A DNA stretch of 32,005 bases from Desulfurococcales archaeon (GTDB lineage: Archaea > Thermoproteota > Thermoprotei_A > Sulfolobales > WANQ01). The notes under the pieces are model-generated. The model ran no database searches. It was not told the DNA's origin and saw nothing but the letters and a program-made list of their open reading frames with translations. The translations under genes and the position numbers were made by a program. Location of the stretch: NCBI GenBank assembly GCA_027030065.1, contig JALVFK010000126.1, positions 1-32,005 of the forward strand, read 5' to 3'. Positions within the stretch are counted from its first letter, which is position 1. Each line of letters begins with the position of its first letter. Positions 23,810 to 32,005 of this stretch are shown here, piece by piece.

Positions 23810-25474
23810 TTAGCCTCCACCTATTAGCTTCATCGAGGTCTGAACCATAGCGTTAATGTAATCTATAATTCCATTAGCTGATGTTGTTCCGCTAGCAATA
23901 TGTTCTAATACATCAATGCCTCCGATCATTGATAGAATTCCTACTAAAATTATTAGCCCAGCTAAAACGCTTAATACCGAAACTGGTAGTGTCTCTTCTC
24001 TTATTTTTCCTAGAAACTCAACGGGCCTAGGAGGTACTAATAATGTCACTATTAGTTTCATGTAACCCAATATACTTATTGCCGTTGATAATATCAATAT
24101 TAGTGCAAATATTGCTAAACCACTATTAATCAATGCATTATATATTAGCAGCTTGCTAAAGAATCCTCCAAGCGGCGGAACTCCAAGAAGATGTAGGAGC
24201 CCTAATATTACTAGAGCCGTTGTTACTGGCATTATTTTTCCAAGACCTTTCATGAAATTTATACTTCTTGTACCCGTTGCTTTTATGTACAGACCAGACG
24301 CCATGAATAAAAGTGTTTTACCAAATGAATGGTTAATTGTATGCAATACCACTCCAGCTATAGCCATAGAGGTAAGAGCTGTACTAACGCCTCTTAAACC
24401 CACACCTAAACCCATGAATATTATCCCTAAGTGCGCGATTGTTGAATAAGCTAACAAACGCTTTATATCATCTTGAATAATCATTACGAGCGCTCCTAGT
24501 ATAGCAGAAACTGCTCCAAGAATTAGGATAATTAATAATATTGCGTCTCTCAGACTCATGCCTCCGCCTATATCAAGTGTAGAGTTAGAGCCGAAAATCG
24601 TGTACATGAAACGTAGTGTGGCATAAGCCCCCATTTTAACAACCAGGCCGGATAAGGCAGCTGATACGGGTGTTGGTGCTTCAGGATGTGCATCGGGAAG
24701 CCAGAAGTGATTGGGAAATACAGCTGACTTAAAGGTAAATGCCCAGAGGGCTAGAGCTAGAGCTATTGCCGAGGCTATAAAGACGTTACCATAACCTACT
24801 CCGCTCATATTGGATAGGAAGCTATATGCTGTAGTAAGAGTTGAGGTAAGCCATGGTCTTGCTTTTAACGCCAAATCAGCCATATTCACCGTACCATATG
24901 TTCCATAAATGAATACCACTGATAAGAAGTACATTGTTGTAGCAGTAGCGCCAACGATAGAGTACTTTATCGCTGCTTCTATGGCTTCTCGTTTAGACCT
25001 ATAAAATGCTACGAGACCGTATGCAGATATAGCTAGCACTTCTATCATAACAAATAAGTTGAATATATCACCTGTGTATACTATACCAAGCATACCGGTT
25101 TCAATTAGTAGAATAAGAGTATAGTACCATTCAACTCCATCTTCATTTTTCATATACCACCAACTATATATTACCACTAATAGCATGTCAAGAGCCACTA
25201 GGAAACCTAAAACACTACTAACACCATCAATCTCGTACACTATGCCAAGAGGACCAGGCCATCCTCCAAACAAGTAAACCAGTGGATGACCATAAACATA
25301 GTTAACTAAGTAGAAGTTAACGAATGCAAACAATAATGCTACAATAGTGAAGACCAGCGCATATATATGGTAGAATAATCTTCTCTTAATTACTAAAGAG
25401 ATTAGTGGAAGTGAAAAGGCTGCTATAGTTAGTAATAATGGTGCTATGCCTATGCTGACTTGAGGCCATATCAT
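23810..25474 (-). CDS. MrpD/MbhH-like antiporter subunit (complex I ND family)
   Basis: A 554-residue polytopic membrane protein of the NuoL/M/N-Mrp family. Key proton-path residues appear in place: Glu in FNLFVMIEVLAISAYG and Lys in AFTFKSAVFPNHFWLPDAHPEAPTPV (the conserved family block). It moves protons or sodium across the membrane when driven by the redox module. The ATG follows AAGGTGAT. It is the last gene of the hydrogenase/Mrp operon, and no MrpA-sized subunit is present. A C-terminal hydrophobic extension of about 60 residues may stand in for the small MbhI subunit; that is inference. Confidence 0.9.
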   Translation of the reverse strand: MIWPQVSIGIAPLLLTIAAFSLPLISLVIKRRLFYHIYALVFTIVALLFAFVNFYLVNYVYGHPLVYLFGGWPGPLGIVYEIDGVSSVLGFLVALDMLLVVIYSWWYMKNEDGVEWYYTLILLIETGMLGIVYTGDIFNLFVMIEVLAISAYGLVAFYRSKREAIEAAIKYSIVGATATTMYFLSVVFIYGTYGTVNMADLALKARPWLTSTLTTAYSFLSNMSGVGYGNVFIASAIALALALWAFTFKSAVFPNHFWLPDAHPEAPTPVSAALSGLVVKMGAYATLRFMYTIFGSNSTLDIGGGMSLRDAILLIILILGAVSAILGALVMIIQDDIKRLLAYSTIAHLGIIFMGLGVGLRGVSTALTSMAIAGVVLHTINHSFGKTLLFMASGLYIKATGTRSINFMKGLGKIMPVTTALVILGLLHLLGVPPLGGFFSKLLIYNALINSGLAIFALILILSTAISILGYMKLIVTLLVPPRPVEFLGKIREETLPVSVLSVLAGLIILVGILSMIGGIDVLEHIASGTTSANGIIDYINAMVQTSMKLIGGG

Positions 25475-25488
25475 AGTGTATCACCTTG

Positions 25489-25995
25489 CTAGTCGAATAT
25501 TCTTTTAGCGTATTCATCGAACATTTTGCTTATTTTTTCGCGTGCAAGAGAAGGCTCGGTAGTTTTAACATCTATCCAATGCACATAAAAGATCTTGTTC
25601 TCCTTATCTAAATCTACTACAACTGTTCCAGGTGTATTTGTTATCGAACATGCCACCAATGCCTCCCCATAATCACTATTGGTTTCATATGGTACGCGTA
25701 CAATTCCCGGATTTAGTGACATCTTAGGACTTAAGGCGCGTTTTATAACATCAATATGTGATAATACTTCGCTTATGAAGAAGTACTTCAACGAGTATGC
25801 TATAAGCCATAAAAACCTCTTTGGATCTGAAGCCTTTTTAGGATTTTCTAATACTATGTTGGTAGTTATTAAACCTACAGCAATTGAAACTATTATACCC
25901 GTCACTATGTCATAGAGTTTTATTGATCCCGTGAATACTATGTAAACAGTAAACGATAATATTGAGATAGGTATTGATTTTATTAGTCTATTCAT
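25489..25995 (-). CDS. mnhE: MnhE/MrpE-like subunit (MbhA)
   Basis: A 168-residue protein with two hydrophobic segments near the N-terminus, then ALSPKMSLNPGIVRVPYET and EALVACSITNTPGTVVVDLD, the MnhE signature (ITLTPGT in most homologues), and FYVHWIDV. It is part of the antiporter module, corresponding to MbhA of Pyrococcus. The ATG overlaps the stop of mnhC (ATGA). Confidence 0.9.
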   Translation of the reverse strand: MNRLIKSIPISILSFTVYIVFTGSIKLYDIVTGIIVSIAVGLITTNIVLENPKKASDPKRFLWLIAYSLKYFFISEVLSHIDVIKRALSPKMSLNPGIVRVPYETNSDYGEALVACSITNTPGTVVVDLDKENKIFYVHWIDVKTTEPSLAREKISKMFDEYAKRIFD

Positions 25996-26390
25996 CTTCT
26001 TCTCACCTTATGAATATTAACTGTACCGTAGAGACGATAATATTGTATGATTATGAACGCTATGAACAAAGTTACAGCAAGTCCTATTACAACTGCTGTG
26101 AGAACAAGCGCTTGAGGGAGAGGGTCAACTGCTGTAGAAGTATATGTTTCTAATACTTTTCTAGTGACTGGCAACTCTGTTATGACGGGAGGCTTGGGTA
26201 GCTTTCCTATAGGCCATCTATACCCCACTAGGATAGCAAAGGCATTAGCTGTATCGCTTAGAATTGTGATTGCTATTAATTTTTTCACTAGGCTTGGCCG
26301 AGCAAATATTCCATAGAGAGCAATACCAAGGTTTACATATAATGATAATACTACTACATATGCAGCGAATAATGCATATTCATTAACCAT
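25992..26390 (-). CDS. mnhC: MnhC/MrpC-like subunit (NuoK-like, MbhG)
   Basis: A 132-residue protein with three predicted membrane helices, including LYVNLGIALYGIFARPSLVKKLIAITILSDTANAF and DPLPQALVLTAVVIGLAVTLFIAFIII. The DPLPQALVLTAIVIG block is diagnostic of MrpC/NuoK relatives. It contributes helices to the ion pathway. The ATG follows GGTGACTATGG, four bases past the end of the mbhEF gene region. Confidence 0.92.
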   Translation of the reverse strand: MVNEYALFAAYVVVLSLYVNLGIALYGIFARPSLVKKLIAITILSDTANAFAILVGYRWPIGKLPKPPVITELPVTRKVLETYTSTAVDPLPQALVLTAVVIGLAVTLFIAFIIIQYYRLYGTVNIHKVRRR

Positions 26391-27189
26391 CCATAGTCAC
26401 CTTCTTGACCTTTTCTTCACTAATAGACAATAGGAGGAATACTATCGTGAACCCAAAGGCTACAGCTATGAATTCAAATAAGTTAAAGAAGAGCAGGGAT
26501 CCTCCAAGAATATAGTTATCTACAAGAGAGGGAAAACTCAGTGGCGCGTCTATCTTCGCCTGGTTTTGAAATATATAGGCATTTACTCCAAGCACTATGG
26601 CAATAAGTAGTAATGCAATACTTGTAATAGCTATTCCGAGTAAACCAATGCTCCTGAATAGTAATGCCTTATTTTTAGATAACCCGTGGATTGGGAGAAA
26701 ATATCTGGAAAATATTATTATCGATAACACTATTACTACTGTAGCAATACTTCCAGCTTGAAATCCTCCTCCAGGTGTTAAATGACCGTGCAGAGCTACG
26801 GAGGCAGACACCGTGGGTATAAGAATGAGAGAAATTCTTGTTACGGTCTTAGCTATTGGACTTAAACCCGTTTTTTCTGTATTCTTTTTAAAATCCATAT
26901 ATACTCCACGATAGAGAGCTATTGATGCAATTATAGCAGCATAGAATACAGCAGTCTCATATAGGGTATCTAAGCCACGGAAATCCCAGACTATAGAGGT
27001 AACTGATTCCAGTGCAAATACCGTAAGATATGGTGTAAACGTGTTATATGTTAGATTCAAGTAGTTAATAGCAATCCTACGTACATTAATTGGTGGTAAA
27101 GGCCCTAGTCCTCCTAATGCTGTTATATATGCTAGACTTAAGATGAATACTATTATTGATGCTATAACGAATACATCAGCTTTTTTCAT
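26383..27189 (-). CDS. Fused MbhE-MnhB (MbhEF) subunit
   Basis: A 268-residue membrane protein. The N-terminal half contains VTSIVWDFRGLDTLYETAVFYAA, the MbhE block (VVTAIVVDYRGYDTxxE type). The C-terminal half is MnhB, with PTVSASVALHGHLTPGGGFQAG and later helices. Pyrococcus has these as separate MbhE and MbhF genes, so this is a fusion. I start at ATG 27189 because GAGGGTGAT ends four bases before it; the frame extends to a GTG at 27198 inside that site. It follows the mbhD stop directly. Confidence 0.85.
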   Translation of the reverse strand: MKKADVFVIASIIVFILSLAYITALGGLGPLPPINVRRIAINYLNLTYNTFTPYLTVFALESVTSIVWDFRGLDTLYETAVFYAAIIASIALYRGVYMDFKKNTEKTGLSPIAKTVTRISLILIPTVSASVALHGHLTPGGGFQAGSIATVVIVLSIIIFSRYFLPIHGLSKNKALLFRSIGLLGIAITSIALLLIAIVLGVNAYIFQNQAKIDAPLSFPSLVDNYILGGSLLFFNLFEFIAVAFGFTIVFLLLSISEEKVKKVTMDG

Positions 27190-27190
27190 A

Positions 27191-27448
27191 TTAATCACCC
27201 TCGTATCGTTCAGTCTTTTTTATTACGAATAGAAGAACAGCTGGTATAAGACCGACAGAGACTGGTATGTATACTAGTACTATATCGGGAGCCATTAGCA
27301 CGTAGTATATTAGTGCATACATGGCACTCTGTATAGCTGAATACACGACCGCTTTCACAAGATCACGTTCACGTATTGCTAGATATGCTGCTACTACACT
27401 AGTTATTGCGAAGAGTGTGAGTAAAGTTAATGTGAAAATTTCAAGCAT
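27191..27448 (-). CDS. MbhD-like subunit (DUF4040)
   Basis: An 85-residue, three-helix membrane protein: LRDLTLFAITSVVAAYLAIRERD-like N-part, DLVKAVVYSAIQSAMYALIYYV and MAPDIVLVYIPVSVGLIPAVLLFVI. The A-P-D-I segment is typical of the DUF4040 family (C-terminal MrpA fragment, MbhD). It belongs to the ion-translocating module. The ATG follows GGGAGATAAG and overlaps the mnhG end by 8 bp. Confidence 0.85.
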   Translation of the reverse strand: MLEIFTLTLLTLFAITSVVAAYLAIRERDLVKAVVYSAIQSAMYALIYYVLMAPDIVLVYIPVSVGLIPAVLLFVIKKTERYEGD

Positions 27449-27830
27449 TCTTATCTCCCTCTTTCTTTTTTATGTCTTCTTCAAGATGATCAACGACTTT
27501 TGGTTCAACTTTAACAAGTCTTGCTTTGTGGGTCGCTCTAGCTAATACGTGCGAGCCTACGGGAGCCAATATTATGATGATGATTGCTGTTATAATTGAA
27601 GCACCAGCTAGAAAGAACCTATACGTACCAAGCCATTCAGCACCAAGAGCTATTAAAGCGATACCGATCAATGGTACGAAGGCTCCACCTATAGTTCCCA
27701 CAGTTGCAGCATGCAATCTCACATAGAAGTTAGGAAACCTTAACATCCCGATACTAGCAGCTAAATCACAGAATACACCTATAGCAACCAGTATTTCACC
27801 AATATATACTACCGTTTCATTTACGTACAT
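27441..27830 (-). CDS. mnhG: MnhG/MrpG-like subunit (MbhC)
   Basis: A 129-residue membrane protein with LAASIGMLRFPNFYVRLHAATVGTIGGAFVPLIGIAL, the MnhG signature (F-P-D-x-Y-x-R-x-H-A-A). The start is the second ATG of the pair there, six bases after GGTGAT. The last helix is followed by a charged tail ending EEDIKKKEGDKNA. It is one of the small antiporter subunits. Confidence 0.92.
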   Translation of the reverse strand: MYVNETVVYIGEILVAIGVFCDLAASIGMLRFPNFYVRLHAATVGTIGGAFVPLIGIALIALGAEWLGTYRFFLAGASIITAIIIIILAPVGSHVLARATHKARLVKVEPKVVDHLEEDIKKKEGDKNA

Positions 27831-27833
27831 ACA

Positions 27834-28124
27834 TTAATCACCCATATCTCGTGCTTCAAAATATTTTGATACATATATGTCGAGAGCATAAACCCATAGA
27901 GCCAGAACAACAGCACATGATATCAATATTGGAGAACGATATAGTATTGAGAGGAGAGCGAGGAAAGCGGCTATGTCAAAGGATAAAGCATCTATAGCTA
28001 AAACTGTATCGGGTATTGTTGGACCCCTTATGGCTCTTATGATGTATAATGTGAATGAAAGCAAGTATAATGGGAAAACTATCATGATAAACAATGTTAC
28101 TTGCTCCTCCAAGCTCATTCTCAT
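27834..28124 (-). CDS. mnhF: MnhF/MrpF-like subunit (MbhB)
   Basis: A 96-residue protein with three helices; RAIRGPTIPDTVLAIDALSFDIAAFLALLS is the MnhF signature. The C-terminal SKYFEARDMGD is hydrophilic. The ATG follows GAGGG. It is the first antiporter gene after the 90-bp gap (28125-28214) that separates it from the hydrogenase genes; that gap is AT-rich and may contain an internal promoter. Confidence 0.9.
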   Translation of the reverse strand: MRMSLEEQVTLFIMIVFPLYLLSFTLYIIRAIRGPTIPDTVLAIDALSFDIAAFLALLSILYRSPILISCAVVLALWVYALDIYVSKYFEARDMGD

Positions 28125-28214
28125 TGGCCCTCATTTAATATTAGGTAAATAGGATAAAAATTTATGTAATAATGCATTAAAACGAAATATTATAAAACTC
28201 ATCATAATATTCAC

Positions 28215-28478
28215 CTAATCTAGTGATAGTTTAAGATACTCGTTCTCACTTAAACGACGCCCAATTATTCTAAGAGCTAGTTCGTCATCCACTATATCTA
28301 CCTCTAAATCTCTTTTCAGGAATGATATTATTTCGTTATATGCTAATGGTATTGTATCCAATCTTATCTTGCTCATCTTATTACAAGTACTATATGATGC
28401 TATTACATGTCTTGACACAGGATTTACTACTTTACGATATTTACACAAGTATACGTTAACATATATGATTTCATTCAT
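28215..28478 (-). CDS. Unknown 87-residue protein inside the hydrogenase operon
   Basis: An 87-residue protein I do not recognise. It has no membrane helix, two cysteines (C12 and C32) and several basic residues in its first half; the second half ALRIIGRRLSENEYLKLSLD looks helical. Its ATG overlaps the stop of the upstream NuoB-like gene (ATGA), so it is translated with that gene and is very probably real. The next gene (mnhF) begins 90 bp later. A role in assembly, maturation or as a peripheral subunit is plausible, but nothing in the sequence proves it. Confidence 0.65.
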   Translation of the reverse strand: MNEIIYVNVYLCKYRKVVNPVSRHVIASYSTCNKMSKIRLDTIPLAYNEIISFLKRDLEVDIVDDELALRIIGRRLSENEYLKLSLD

Positions 28479-28960
28479 CTAACAATCACCTCCACCTCTG
28501 TTTCTTTTACTTTAGGCTTAGCTATACCTAACAGAACAGCCACTCCATAAATTATGGCTTCGGGACGAGCAGGACACCCGGGTACATATACGAGTTTGTC
28601 TATTACAACACCTTGTTCTTCAAGTACTCTCTTCAAAGCCTCAATACCACCAATAACACCATATGAATCATGCCATATCCCCCCACCAACTGCACAAGCA
28701 CCGATTGCAAGAACTAATCGTGGTCGTGGAACAGCTCTTAGAGTTCTTACGACTTTTGGTAGAGTTTTTCTTGTGATAGGGCCTGTTAGGAGCACTAAAT
28801 CAGCGTGTCTCGGCGATGCTACCAATCTTATACCAAAGCGTTCCGCATCAAAATATGGTGTTAGCACATCAAGTATCTCTATATCGCAGGCATTACATCC
28901 ACCAGTATTCAAGTGGAATACCCATATACTTTTCTTTAATATGTTACTTGGCTTCAACAT
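28475..28960 (-). CDS. NuoB-like small subunit of group 4 hydrogenase (MbhJ/HycG)
   Basis: A 161-residue protein with the [4Fe-4S] ligands of the NuoB/HycG family: CNACDIEI near the N-terminus, GACAVGGG in the middle and PGCPARPEAI near the end. It passes electrons from the ferredoxin-like subunit to the NiFe centre. I start at ATG 28960 because GAGGGATG precedes it; the frame continues to another ATG at 28978 within the end of the ferredoxin gene. The end overlaps the unknown 87-residue gene (ATGA). Confidence 0.92.
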   Translation of the reverse strand: MLKPSNILKKSIWVFHLNTGGCNACDIEILDVLTPYFDAERFGIRLVASPRHADLVLLTGPITRKTLPKVVRTLRAVPRPRLVLAIGACAVGGGIWHDSYGVIGGIEALKRVLEEQGVVIDKLVYVPGCPARPEAIIYGVAVLLGIAKPKVKETEVEVIVR

Positions 28961-29471
28961 AAAGCATCCCTCTACCATGGAGCATTCCTTCTACGAATTT
29001 CCGTTTCTTACAATTAGTTGCCATATGAGCATATGTCTCGGCAACGGGTACTCTTCTTATAACAAATTTTATCATATTCTCTGGCGCATGTCTTTCAGAA
29101 CCACATCTACAACACACGACTTTGTAGTGAACTACTTTATTATTTAGATCCTTAATGTTTTCTGTCGCCAACTCGAAGTCCTTGGTTATTGTTATAGCTT
29201 TTACAGGACAAACATCAGCACAACTTCCACAGTAAATACATCTACCTATAAAGTAATTTATTATTCTCTTATCATAGGTTTCTTTTATGGTTAGCGCATT
29301 ACTAGGGCAGATGTTTACACATGCTCCGCATCCTATACACTTGGAAGCATCTATTACTATTCTGCCTCTGAATTCACTCGTTATTAATGGTGGTTTATCG
29401 GGGTACCGTATGGTTACTACCCCAGTCTTGCGGGCTATATCTAGTAGTTTTAATGGTTTCATCTTATTCAT
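28944..29471 (-). CDS. HycF/NuoI-like 2x[4Fe-4S] ferredoxin subunit
   Basis: A 175-residue protein with two canonical ferredoxin motifs: C45, C48, C51, C55 (CIGCGACVNICP) and C78, C81, C84, C88 (CIYCGSCADVCP). A further cysteine group CCRCG (120-124), together with a cysteine near 154, resembles the extra C-terminal site of HycF. It links soluble ferredoxin to the hydrogenase. The start is ATG 29471, overlapping the large-subunit stop in an ATGA junction, with GAGGTG at about 6 bases; the longer frame begins at TTG 29489 inside the upstream gene. Confidence 0.92.
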   Translation of the reverse strand: MNKMKPLKLLDIARKTGVVTIRYPDKPPLITSEFRGRIVIDASKCIGCGACVNICPSNALTIKETYDKRIINYFIGRCIYCGSCADVCPVKAITITKDFELATENIKDLNNKVVHYKVVCCRCGSERHAPENMIKFVIRRVPVAETYAHMATNCKKRKFVEGMLHGRGMLYVEAK

Positions 29472-31141
29472 AATCCACACCTCGGACAAATATTGTATCT
29501 TTGCAATTCTTTGAATGAAATAGTCCTCCGTTTACCAGTTGAGAGATCAACAACTTGTATTCTATCTGTACACGAAAAGCATGGATCTATACTAGCTATG
29601 GTTAATGGAGCGTCAGCCAATGGAGCGTCTTTAAGCATTACTTTAAGAGCTGGTATATTCTGATACGTTGGTGCCCTCACACGCCATCTATATAATTTAT
29701 TATCTTTACCCGTTATAACAAAGTGTATATCCTCTCCTCTCGGCGCCTCAACCGATGATACACCTATAGCATTTTCAGGTATCTCTATTTCTTCACTCAT
29801 TATCGGTCCTTGGGGCAACTGATCCAATAATTGTCTTATTATATTGATGCTCTCAAATACTTCATCGACTCTTACAAGTAGTCTTGCCAAATTATCTCCT
29901 TCACTATAAACTGGTACTTTAAAGGAGACATACTTGTAGGCTGCATAAGGGTAATCCTTTCTAACATCTCTCTTTAGCCCGGAGGCTCTGGCTACTGGTC
30001 CTACTACACTTAACTTACGTGCATCGCTTCTCGGTAATATACCAGTACCCTTTGCACGCTTAACTATTTGCGGTATACTTGTTATTACTTCAACGAGCTT
30101 CTTGAATTCGTTTTCAACCCATTCTATTGTTTTCATGGTAGCATTTATCTTATCATTATTTATGTCTTTCTTCACACCTCCTACAAGGTTTATTCCATAA
30201 GTTTTACGGCTACCAGTCAGTAGCTCGGCGAGAATCATTGTTTTTTCTCTAATTCTCCAAGCGTGCATGAATCCAGCATCATATCCTAGTAGATGACATG
30301 CAACGCCTATCCATAATAGGTGGCTATGAAGTCTTTCGACTTCCAGTAGGATTGATCTTATGAATAGAGCTCGTTCTGGAACCTCTATCTTTGCGGCGGA
30401 TTCTACTGCTTGAGTATAGCAAACAGAGTGAACGAATCCGCATATGCCACAGATTCTTTCTGCGAGAAATGGGACTTGTTGATATGTAAATCTTGATTCA
30501 CCTAATTTCTCTATACCCCTATGAACATGGAATCCGTTGTATTCTACATCTACAACTCTTTCGCCTTCAACATATAATTCGAAATACTCGGGTTCATGGA
30601 GAGCCGGGTGGTAGGGGCCCACTGGGATTCTTGGACCACTTAATACTTGTTTTTGAGACTTGACAGGCTTAGGTCTTATATTGTATGGTGTATCCTTTCT
30701 TAGAGGATACACACCTTCAGGCCAGTCTTCGGGGAGAACAAACCTATAGAGTTTTCTATTACTGAAGCGTATACCCAATAGATCATACATTTCAAGTTCA
30801 TACCAATCAGCTGAAGGAACAATATCAGTTATCGAAGGTAATTTTGGGTCCTCGGGAGGCATATGTGTTACAACAATTATATTTAATCCGTATCCATCTA
30901 AACCAAACACATAGTAGGCGGAGAATACTCCTTTAATAGGTCTTTCATCTACGCCAGCTACTGTTCTAAGATAAGTGTCTAGTATTTCATGTACATAGTA
31001 TGCTATTTCACGGAGATTTCCACGGGAAACTTCTATTAATAAGCCTGCTCCTTCCTCATAGTATATTCTGTTTATTAAGTCTCCTTTCTCGGACACTATT
31101 TTTCTCCTTATTTTTTCTATCAATTCTTTATTTACTGTCAT
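29468..31141 (-). CDS. Fused NuoC-NuoD large subunit of group 4 [NiFe] hydrogenase (HycE-like)
   Basis: A 557-residue protein. The N-terminal third is NuoC-like, with DWYELEMYDLLGIRF at 112-126. The rest is the NuoD-like catalytic subunit. Both cysteine pairs that hold the NiFe site are present: C231/C234 in RICGIC and C521/C524 in DPCFSC. The tail TDRIQVVDLSTGKRRTISFKELQRY resembles E. coli HycE, followed by CPRCGL. About 33 residues follow the last Ni ligand; whether they are cleaved is unclear. In Pyrococcus Mbh these two parts are separate genes, so this is a fusion. The ATG follows GGTG in the NuoH end. Confidence 0.94.
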   Translation of the reverse strand: MTVNKELIEKIRRKIVSEKGDLINRIYYEEGAGLLIEVSRGNLREIAYYVHEILDTYLRTVAGVDERPIKGVFSAYYVFGLDGYGLNIIVVTHMPPEDPKLPSITDIVPSADWYELEMYDLLGIRFSNRKLYRFVLPEDWPEGVYPLRKDTPYNIRPKPVKSQKQVLSGPRIPVGPYHPALHEPEYFELYVEGERVVDVEYNGFHVHRGIEKLGESRFTYQQVPFLAERICGICGFVHSVCYTQAVESAAKIEVPERALFIRSILLEVERLHSHLLWIGVACHLLGYDAGFMHAWRIREKTMILAELLTGSRKTYGINLVGGVKKDINNDKINATMKTIEWVENEFKKLVEVITSIPQIVKRAKGTGILPRSDARKLSVVGPVARASGLKRDVRKDYPYAAYKYVSFKVPVYSEGDNLARLLVRVDEVFESINIIRQLLDQLPQGPIMSEEIEIPENAIGVSSVEAPRGEDIHFVITGKDNKLYRWRVRAPTYQNIPALKVMLKDAPLADAPLTIASIDPCFSCTDRIQVVDLSTGKRRTISFKELQRYNICPRCGL

Positions 31142-31143
31142 TT

Positions 31144-32005
31144 TTATACACCCATAAATCCTAGTATTGTGTAAAGAATTGATAAAGGTAAATATACCTT
31201 AAGTAGCTCCTTAGGTGCTATATCCACACGGGTTCTCGCAAGAATTATAGAAGCTACAGCAAACAATAGCCATACACCTATTAGTAATACAATGAAGGAA
31301 ATCGTCGAATATATGGGCCCTAACATGTTATGAAATGGAAGGACTATTAGGTCAGTAACAACCCCATATAGGATTATTCTTTTCACAAAATGTGTATAAA
31401 GGGCTAATCCGAGTAGAGGACCACTAAACTCTATTAATATACCTGAAGCAAGCTCTGGCTCTGCTTCACCTATGTCATAGGGTATCCTACCTGACGCAAC
31501 ATAACATGCTATTATCAGAGAGACAACCAATACTATATAGGCTATGACAGGTATATTCCCTAGAGATATGTTGGCAAAACTAGACGTACCACACATTAAC
31601 ATAAGTGCTATAAAACCTAACGCTAAGAAGAACTCATTAATAATACCTAGTGAGGCCTCCCTAAATACTCCTATTGTAGCAAAAGGATTACCAGTTACTA
31701 ATGAACTGATAGCCCATAAGAGCTGTATCGAAATTAATAATACGAGTAAGAGGACTATATCCGGTAACATGAATTGAGATACAATAGGATATCCGTACGG
31801 CAAGATGAATAATGCAGAAATAACTAATGAAACAATTAATCCTATAACAATGAAAATACTTTCGGCCCCTTCCGGTACTATTAATTCTTTAGAAAACAGC
31901 TTCAATATATCATACCATGATTGAAGAATGGTTGGAGGACCTATCCTACTATGTATTTTAGCCTTAATCTTACGTTCAATACCATCGAGTATTGGAGCTA
32001 GTACT
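31144..32005 (-). CDS. NuoH/HycD/MbhM-like membrane subunit, cut by window edge
   Basis: A membrane protein whose visible part is at least 287 residues. The frame stays open to the right edge and encodes the NuoH N-terminal block LDGIERKIKAKIHSRIGPPT, then QSWYDILKLFSKE; the start therefore lies outside the window, and an apparent TTG at 31905 is internal. Later, GRIPYDIGEAEPELASGI matches the charged loop that connects NuoH to the peripheral arm. It anchors the catalytic subunits to the membrane and is the first visible gene of the operon. The stop is followed within 2 bp by the large-subunit ATG. Confidence 0.92.
   Translation of the reverse strand, partial: VLAPILDGIERKIKAKIHSRIGPPTILQSWYDILKLFSKELIVPEGAESIFIVIGLIVSLVISALFILPYGYPIVSQFMLPDIVLLLVLLISIQLLWAISSLVTGNPFATIGVFREASLGIINEFFLALGFIALMLMCGTSSFANISLGNIPVIAYIVLVVSLIIACYVASGRIPYDIGEAEPELASGILIEFSGPLLGLALYTHFVKRIILYGVVTDLIVLPFHNMLGPIYSTISFIVLLIGVWLLFAVASIILARTRVDIAPKELLKVYLPLSILYTILGFMGV

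Follow-up and report, generated by a model that had tools for sequence, protein, structure and literature searches.

An undescribed protein family behind NuoB in archaeal HycE-type [NiFe] hydrogenase clusters

Analysis of an archaeal hydrogenase operon indicated that the 87-residue product of the gene behind NuoB, here called X, is probably soluble and serves a HycE-type energy-converting [NiFe] hydrogenase as a dedicated small accessory protein, with a HycH-like assembly factor as its likeliest role (probability roughly 0.52). X represents a small family, so far undescribed, that goes with hydrogenases of the HycE type.

The hydrogenase operon and the position of X

The window, that is the whole stretch of 32,005 nucleotides analysed, is one entire contig. 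Its minus strand carries, in this order, NuoH, NuoCD, NuoI, NuoB, X, MnhF, MnhG, MbhD, MnhB, MnhC, MnhE and MnhD, and X is flanked by NuoB (28475-28978) and MnhF (27834-28124). MnhF to MnhE were assigned by domain matches and MnhD by position and relatives. The features are as follows.

31144..32004, minus strand: NuoH/HycD-like membrane subunit, an open ORF truncated by the contig end
29468..31141, minus strand: NuoCD/HycE-type catalytic subunit with RICGICGFVH, DPCFSCTDR and a HycE-like C-terminal tail
28944..29489, minus strand: NuoI/HycF-like 2x[4Fe-4S] subunit (Fer4)
28475..28978, minus strand: NuoB/HycG-like [4Fe-4S] small subunit (Oxidored_q6 PF01058, 1e-24)
28475..28478, minus strand: ATGA overlap of 4 nt between the NuoB stop and the X start
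28215..28478, minus strand: X, 87-aa gene with an ATG start; C12, R23, H24, C32 and Y81 invariant in 21 core homologues
28125-28214: X-MnhF spacer of 90 nt, 88/90 bases (97.8%) identical in the sister species
28153..28166, minus strand: A/T-rich TATA-like element CATAAATTTTTATC within the spacer
23810..28124, minus strand: Mrp-type ion module MnhF, MnhG, MbhD, MnhB, MnhC, MnhE, MnhD

The catalytic subunit is a NuoC-NuoD fusion with both NiFe cysteine motifs and a tail that aligns with that of HycE, as in the HycE-type group 4 [NiFe] hydrogenases. Its alignment with E. coli HycE gave 44% identity over 531 columns and spans the cleaved tail, and its best match among solved structures was 7z0s_E (HycE) with 470.5 bits vs 246.5 bits for MbhL (6cfw_L). 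The best NCBIfam match of NuoI was the formate hydrogenlyase iron-sulfur subunit, under the cut-off of that model. The operon resembles the Mbh of Pyrococcus furiosus in that an Mrp-type ion module is joined to a [NiFe] hydrogenase module, but its catalytic subunit is clearly nearer to HycE than to MbhL, and the assignment of the operon to Pyrococcus Mbh was rejected on the NuoC-NuoD fusion and the HycE score. This agreement with HycE, which extends into the cleavable tail, makes formate hydrogenlyase (Hyc/Hyf) the right comparison. The earlier note had used Pyrococcus Mbh as its yardstick and could name no counterpart of X there; that yardstick had to be given up, and Hyc/Hyf operons do fill this slot. 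In HycE a tail of 32 residues is cut once the cofactor has been inserted (PMC7050243), and a PF01750 protease was found above the cut-off in the genome of the window.

The TATA-like element in the X-MnhF spacer is shared with locus L028, where it reads CATAAGTTTTTATC. Since the spacer is conserved and carries this element, the ion module may have a promoter of its own, with X closing the redox module.

Comparable clusters have been published. In the Smar3 cluster of Staphylothermus marinus nuoH is 1060, nuoCD 1061, nuoI 1062, nuoB 1063 and MnhF 1065, the same gene order as in the window operon; Table 4 skips the number 1064 and gives no function for X (PMC2678158, Table 4). The 'dehydrogenase-linked MBX' cluster of Thermosphaera aggregans corresponds to Tagg_0050-0059 (PMC3035292). 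Among the genomes searched here, X lies exactly between NuoB and MnhF in G192 and behind NuoB in G226. Farther upstream, the sister clusters encode two proteins resembling MnhD, one resembling ferredoxin and an apparent SudA/GltD-type flavoprotein, the layout published for the Thermosphaera dehydrogenase-linked cluster (PMC3035292) and for Smar_1055-1071 (PMC2678158). In the same clusters another unnamed gene of about 110 codons separates NuoH from the second MnhD-like gene (L028:13023-13355 and L086:5003-5338), and the number 1059 is likewise missing from the S. marinus table (PMC2678158). Within the literature collection searched, no paper on Smar_1064, PAB1397 or Tagg_0053 was found.

Conservation and distribution of X

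X is a genuine gene. An open frame of 87 codons arises by chance at the base composition of the window with a probability of about 0.0026 per trial, so that the length of the ORF is weak evidence taken alone and conservation decides. The closest relative was found in the Thermoprotei MAG JALWGO010000148.1, a sister species, with 89% identity and identical neighbours. X differs between the two species by 11 nonsynonymous and 9 synonymous substitutions (Fisher p = 0.018; dN/dS 0.30), and NuoB is far more tightly constrained (dN/dS 0.05). X is short, and at 10 of 48 homologous loci (G419 being left out of the ten) the expected start is not ATG, GTG or TTG, two points that would suit a spurious frame, open only because it adjoins the operon; this explanation is nevertheless refuted, to the point of being negligible, by conservation across the order, by an open frame and a protein kept over many genera and by purifying selection against the sister species. 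Where relatives have ATG, seven loci have CTG (L137, L141, L149, L204, L207, L176 and L212) and two have ACG (L132 and L145), and at these 9/48 loci the putative near-cognate starts could possibly be used through translational coupling. In G030 the NuoB gene is split into two frames (L035:9226-9241) and the X of that cluster has no ATG; this may reflect decay of the cluster or an error in sequencing.

A profile built from 21 homologues was searched at E <= 1e-4 against 147 genomes of the order, the searches covering Thermoproteota, and recovered 48 X loci in 47/147 genomes. X lies directly behind NuoB at 47/48 loci, usually abutting the stop codon of NuoB or sharing a few nucleotides with it; in the single exception (G010) it lies about 1.5 kb past NuoB. 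At 45/48 loci X is downstream of a NuoCD that has the same orientation and lies on the same contig, the distance being about 1 kb at 43 of the 45, which leaves room for NuoI and NuoB, and larger in G429 (1.5 kb) and G010 (2.8 kb). At the other three loci X also comes after NuoB, and the contig carries a truncated NuoCD or none. A HycE-like large subunit, defined by a NuoCD search at E <= 1e-130, was found in 57/147 genomes; X is present in 47 of these 57 and in none of the other 90, so that every X genome (47/47) encodes such a subunit.

MnhF is the next gene after X at only 7/48 loci. At the other 41 it is not, and in several families the Mrp genes are upstream of NuoH or were not seen near X. 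X therefore belongs to the hydrogenase module. The position between the redox and ion modules, reported in the earlier note, holds in the window as a local arrangement, and a tie to the ion module was not borne out, since X is also present at loci where another gene than MnhF comes next or where no Mrp cassette was found nearby. Its other observations fared better: the ATG of the 87-residue gene does sit in the NuoB stop, and the conservation in related operons that it had proposed to check was found.

Ten of the 57 HycE-bearing genomes gave no X. In G462, G418 and G024 the contig ends within or before the X slot; in G427, G431, G432, G437, G449, G457 and G460 no X was detected at E <= 0.1. 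Since these last seven have no contig end to account for the absence, X is common but not universally required. Some genomes carry second or third HycE-type clusters without X, in which for example NuoB leads straight into MnhF or into a sugar-isomerase-like gene (the latter named by reading of the sequence). Twenty further large subunits, including those of X-less clusters, were fetched and all keep DPCxxC and the tail; a loss of maturation, with lost NiFe ligands or a lost tail, was accordingly rejected as the reason for the absence of X. Four paralogous HycE-type subunits from clusters where NuoB leads straight to MnhF (L183, L185, L187 and L188) read DPCFSCTDH, not DPCFSCTDR, and this R to H change falls on the tail-cleavage residue.

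Analysis of the X sequences revealed no Pfam, NCBIfam or PDB family above the cut-off, with matches at chance level only, and no transmembrane helix, since hydropathy in 19-residue windows peaks at 1.19 across 21 homologues; on both points the earlier note was right. It had also seen no known metal motif, and this stands for named motifs, including Fe-S motifs, but passes over C12, H24 and C32, which together with R23 and Y81 are invariant in the 21 core sequences. A wider set of 31 sequences, three of which are slot ORFs failing the HMM test, retains H24 in all 31 members, R23 in 29, Y81 in 27, C12 in 25 and C32 in 24. These three ORFs (L173, L177 and L178) resemble X by eye and were excluded from the X counts. 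The relatives outside the core that the HMM accepts are L077, L167, L080 and L081 (E 7.5e-8 to 1.3e-5 vs 3,288 sequences); L167, L080 and L077, all with E < 1e-5, lack both cysteines and L081 lacks one. Since relatives outside the core lose cysteines, a metal site is possible in the core alone, and there a disulfide would be as likely as a metal site in hyperthermophiles. An AF2 model built from two sequences (X of the window and of L002) was weak (pLDDT 65). Foldseek with this model returned nothing from the PDB at E <= 0.001, and the best VIA-align score (Z 2.9, to a colicin immunity protein and DapD) was at noise level.

Comparison with HycH and alternative roles

The genes hycD-hycE-hycF-hycG-hycH of E. 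coli MG1655 match NuoH-NuoCD-NuoI-NuoB-X gene by gene, and hycH overlaps hycG by 4 nt as X overlaps NuoB. The gene hyfJ occupies the matching slot in E. coli hyf, and six plasmid hyc-type operons have HycH annotated in the slot behind NuoB. HycH and HyfJ are the assembly chaperones of E. coli formate hydrogenlyase and hydrogenase 4. During assembly, en route to the complex, HycH binds to hydrogenase 3 (PMC6004506). X and HycH/HyfJ (PF07450) are thus alike in slot, overlap and operon order, and both are small soluble proteins that accompany a HycE-type subunit with a cleavable tail. They differ in that HycH/HyfJ has about 136 residues and X, with 87, is some 50 residues shorter, and in that HycH has a GHH stretch where X has RH; the GHH stretch looks helical by eye, while RH stands at the start of a strand in the weak model (pLDDT 65). 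In bacterial hyc-type operons hycH is followed by hycI, whereas X in the window is followed by MnhF.

The likeness in slot and overlap could also mean that X is a true HycH homologue, extremely diverged and shortened, which would be a special case of an assembly factor. The full-length hhalign path does run through matching features in order: it aligns the first strands, then RH to HH, then GE-V-I to GEIVI, and lastly the Y region near the C-terminus. An order of features picked out by eye is no evidence, however, and the score of X against HycH (0.2 to 0.4% probability) was insignificant against shuffled or reversed profiles. The comparison was run in local, global and maximum-coverage modes with 150 column shuffles each, using an X alignment read from the DNA (A4) and one that contained the slot ORFs L173, L177 and L178 (A5). 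Shuffles reached the observed score in 36/150 (A4) and 15/150 (A5) cases in local mode, 33/150 and 20/150 with -mact 0, and 108/150 and 100/150 with -glob; for A5 the reversed profile outscored the true one (12.77 vs 12.32). HMMs of X and HycH gave no match in either direction among 3,288 sequences. PF07450 gave no match to X in 20 members and none above the cut-off in 59 and 398 genomes, only chance matches being seen while the E. coli positive control was matched; no hydrogenase was seen in the surroundings of six of these chance matches. A PDB search found no HycH structure. X holds the place of HycH and may work likewise; homology to HycH was tested and found no support, and we regard descent from HycH as improbable.

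The earlier note had offered a peripheral subunit or an assembly factor. Both are plausible and the sequence favours neither decisively, although we place the assembly factor ahead. As a subunit X would be a small stoichiometric component that stays in the mature complex and packs on NuoB/NuoI; C12, H24 and C32 might then hold a structural Zn. The five residues invariant in the core, the strict place behind NuoB and purifying selection agree with this, and X is comparable in size to the small accessory subunits of complex I. The cysteines missing from L167, L080, L077 and L081 argue against a general metal site, X is absent from seven HycE-bearing genomes and the formate hydrogenlyase of E. 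coli is not known to need a small subunit of this kind; a structural role is the main rival, though less likely. The undescribed family of X would also permit a regulator, or some other factor simply housed in the operon. Quite unlikely as it is, this reading has against it that no genome of the order lacking a HycE-type subunit contained X (0/90 genomes) and that no regulatory family scored above the cut-off.

A HycH-like assembly factor is favoured because X co-occurs with the HycE-like subunit (47/57 vs 0/90) and stands behind NuoB (47/48), because the large subunit has a HycE-type cleavable tail, because HycH/HyfJ takes the same slot in bacteria and HycH binds hydrogenase 3, and because the genome encodes a PF01750 protease and X has neither Fe-S motifs nor membrane helices. 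That X persists at the 41/48 loci with no MnhF directly after it points to the hydrogenase module as its partner. Counted against this role are the undetectable HycH homology, the shorter length, the apparently different structural contexts of RH and GHH, the seven HycE-bearing genomes without X and the fact that a structural subunit would keep identical synteny.

Possible mode of action and significance

As an assembly factor X would be made beside nascent NuoB through translational coupling. It might bind the unprocessed large subunit with the cleavable C-terminal tail still on, and/or NuoB, and would keep the bound subunits ready for cofactor insertion and docking, leaving after a HycI-type protease has cut the tail. 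R23 and H24 could serve as a contact or ligand site, and C12 and C32 might form a disulfide or, together with H24, bind a metal.

More tentatively, X may found a new Thermoproteota family of hydrogenase assembly factors, unrelated to HycH and with an RH/Cys core, which has taken the operon place and the job of HycH. An outlying member of that family would be L081, on a contig with a CO-dehydrogenase cluster from another lineage. This distant relative of X lies at L081:5818-6081, and by reading of the sequence its contig carries CO dehydrogenase, CooC-like and antiporter-like genes.

The published table of subunits of these archaeal complexes omits the gene behind NuoB (PMC2678158, Table 4). 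X provides a simple marker of HycE-type clusters in hyperthermophiles. If X is an assembly factor, rebuilding archaeal enzymes of the formate-hydrogenlyase type in other hosts would probably require it, and X may represent a second way of doing the work that falls to HycH in bacteria.
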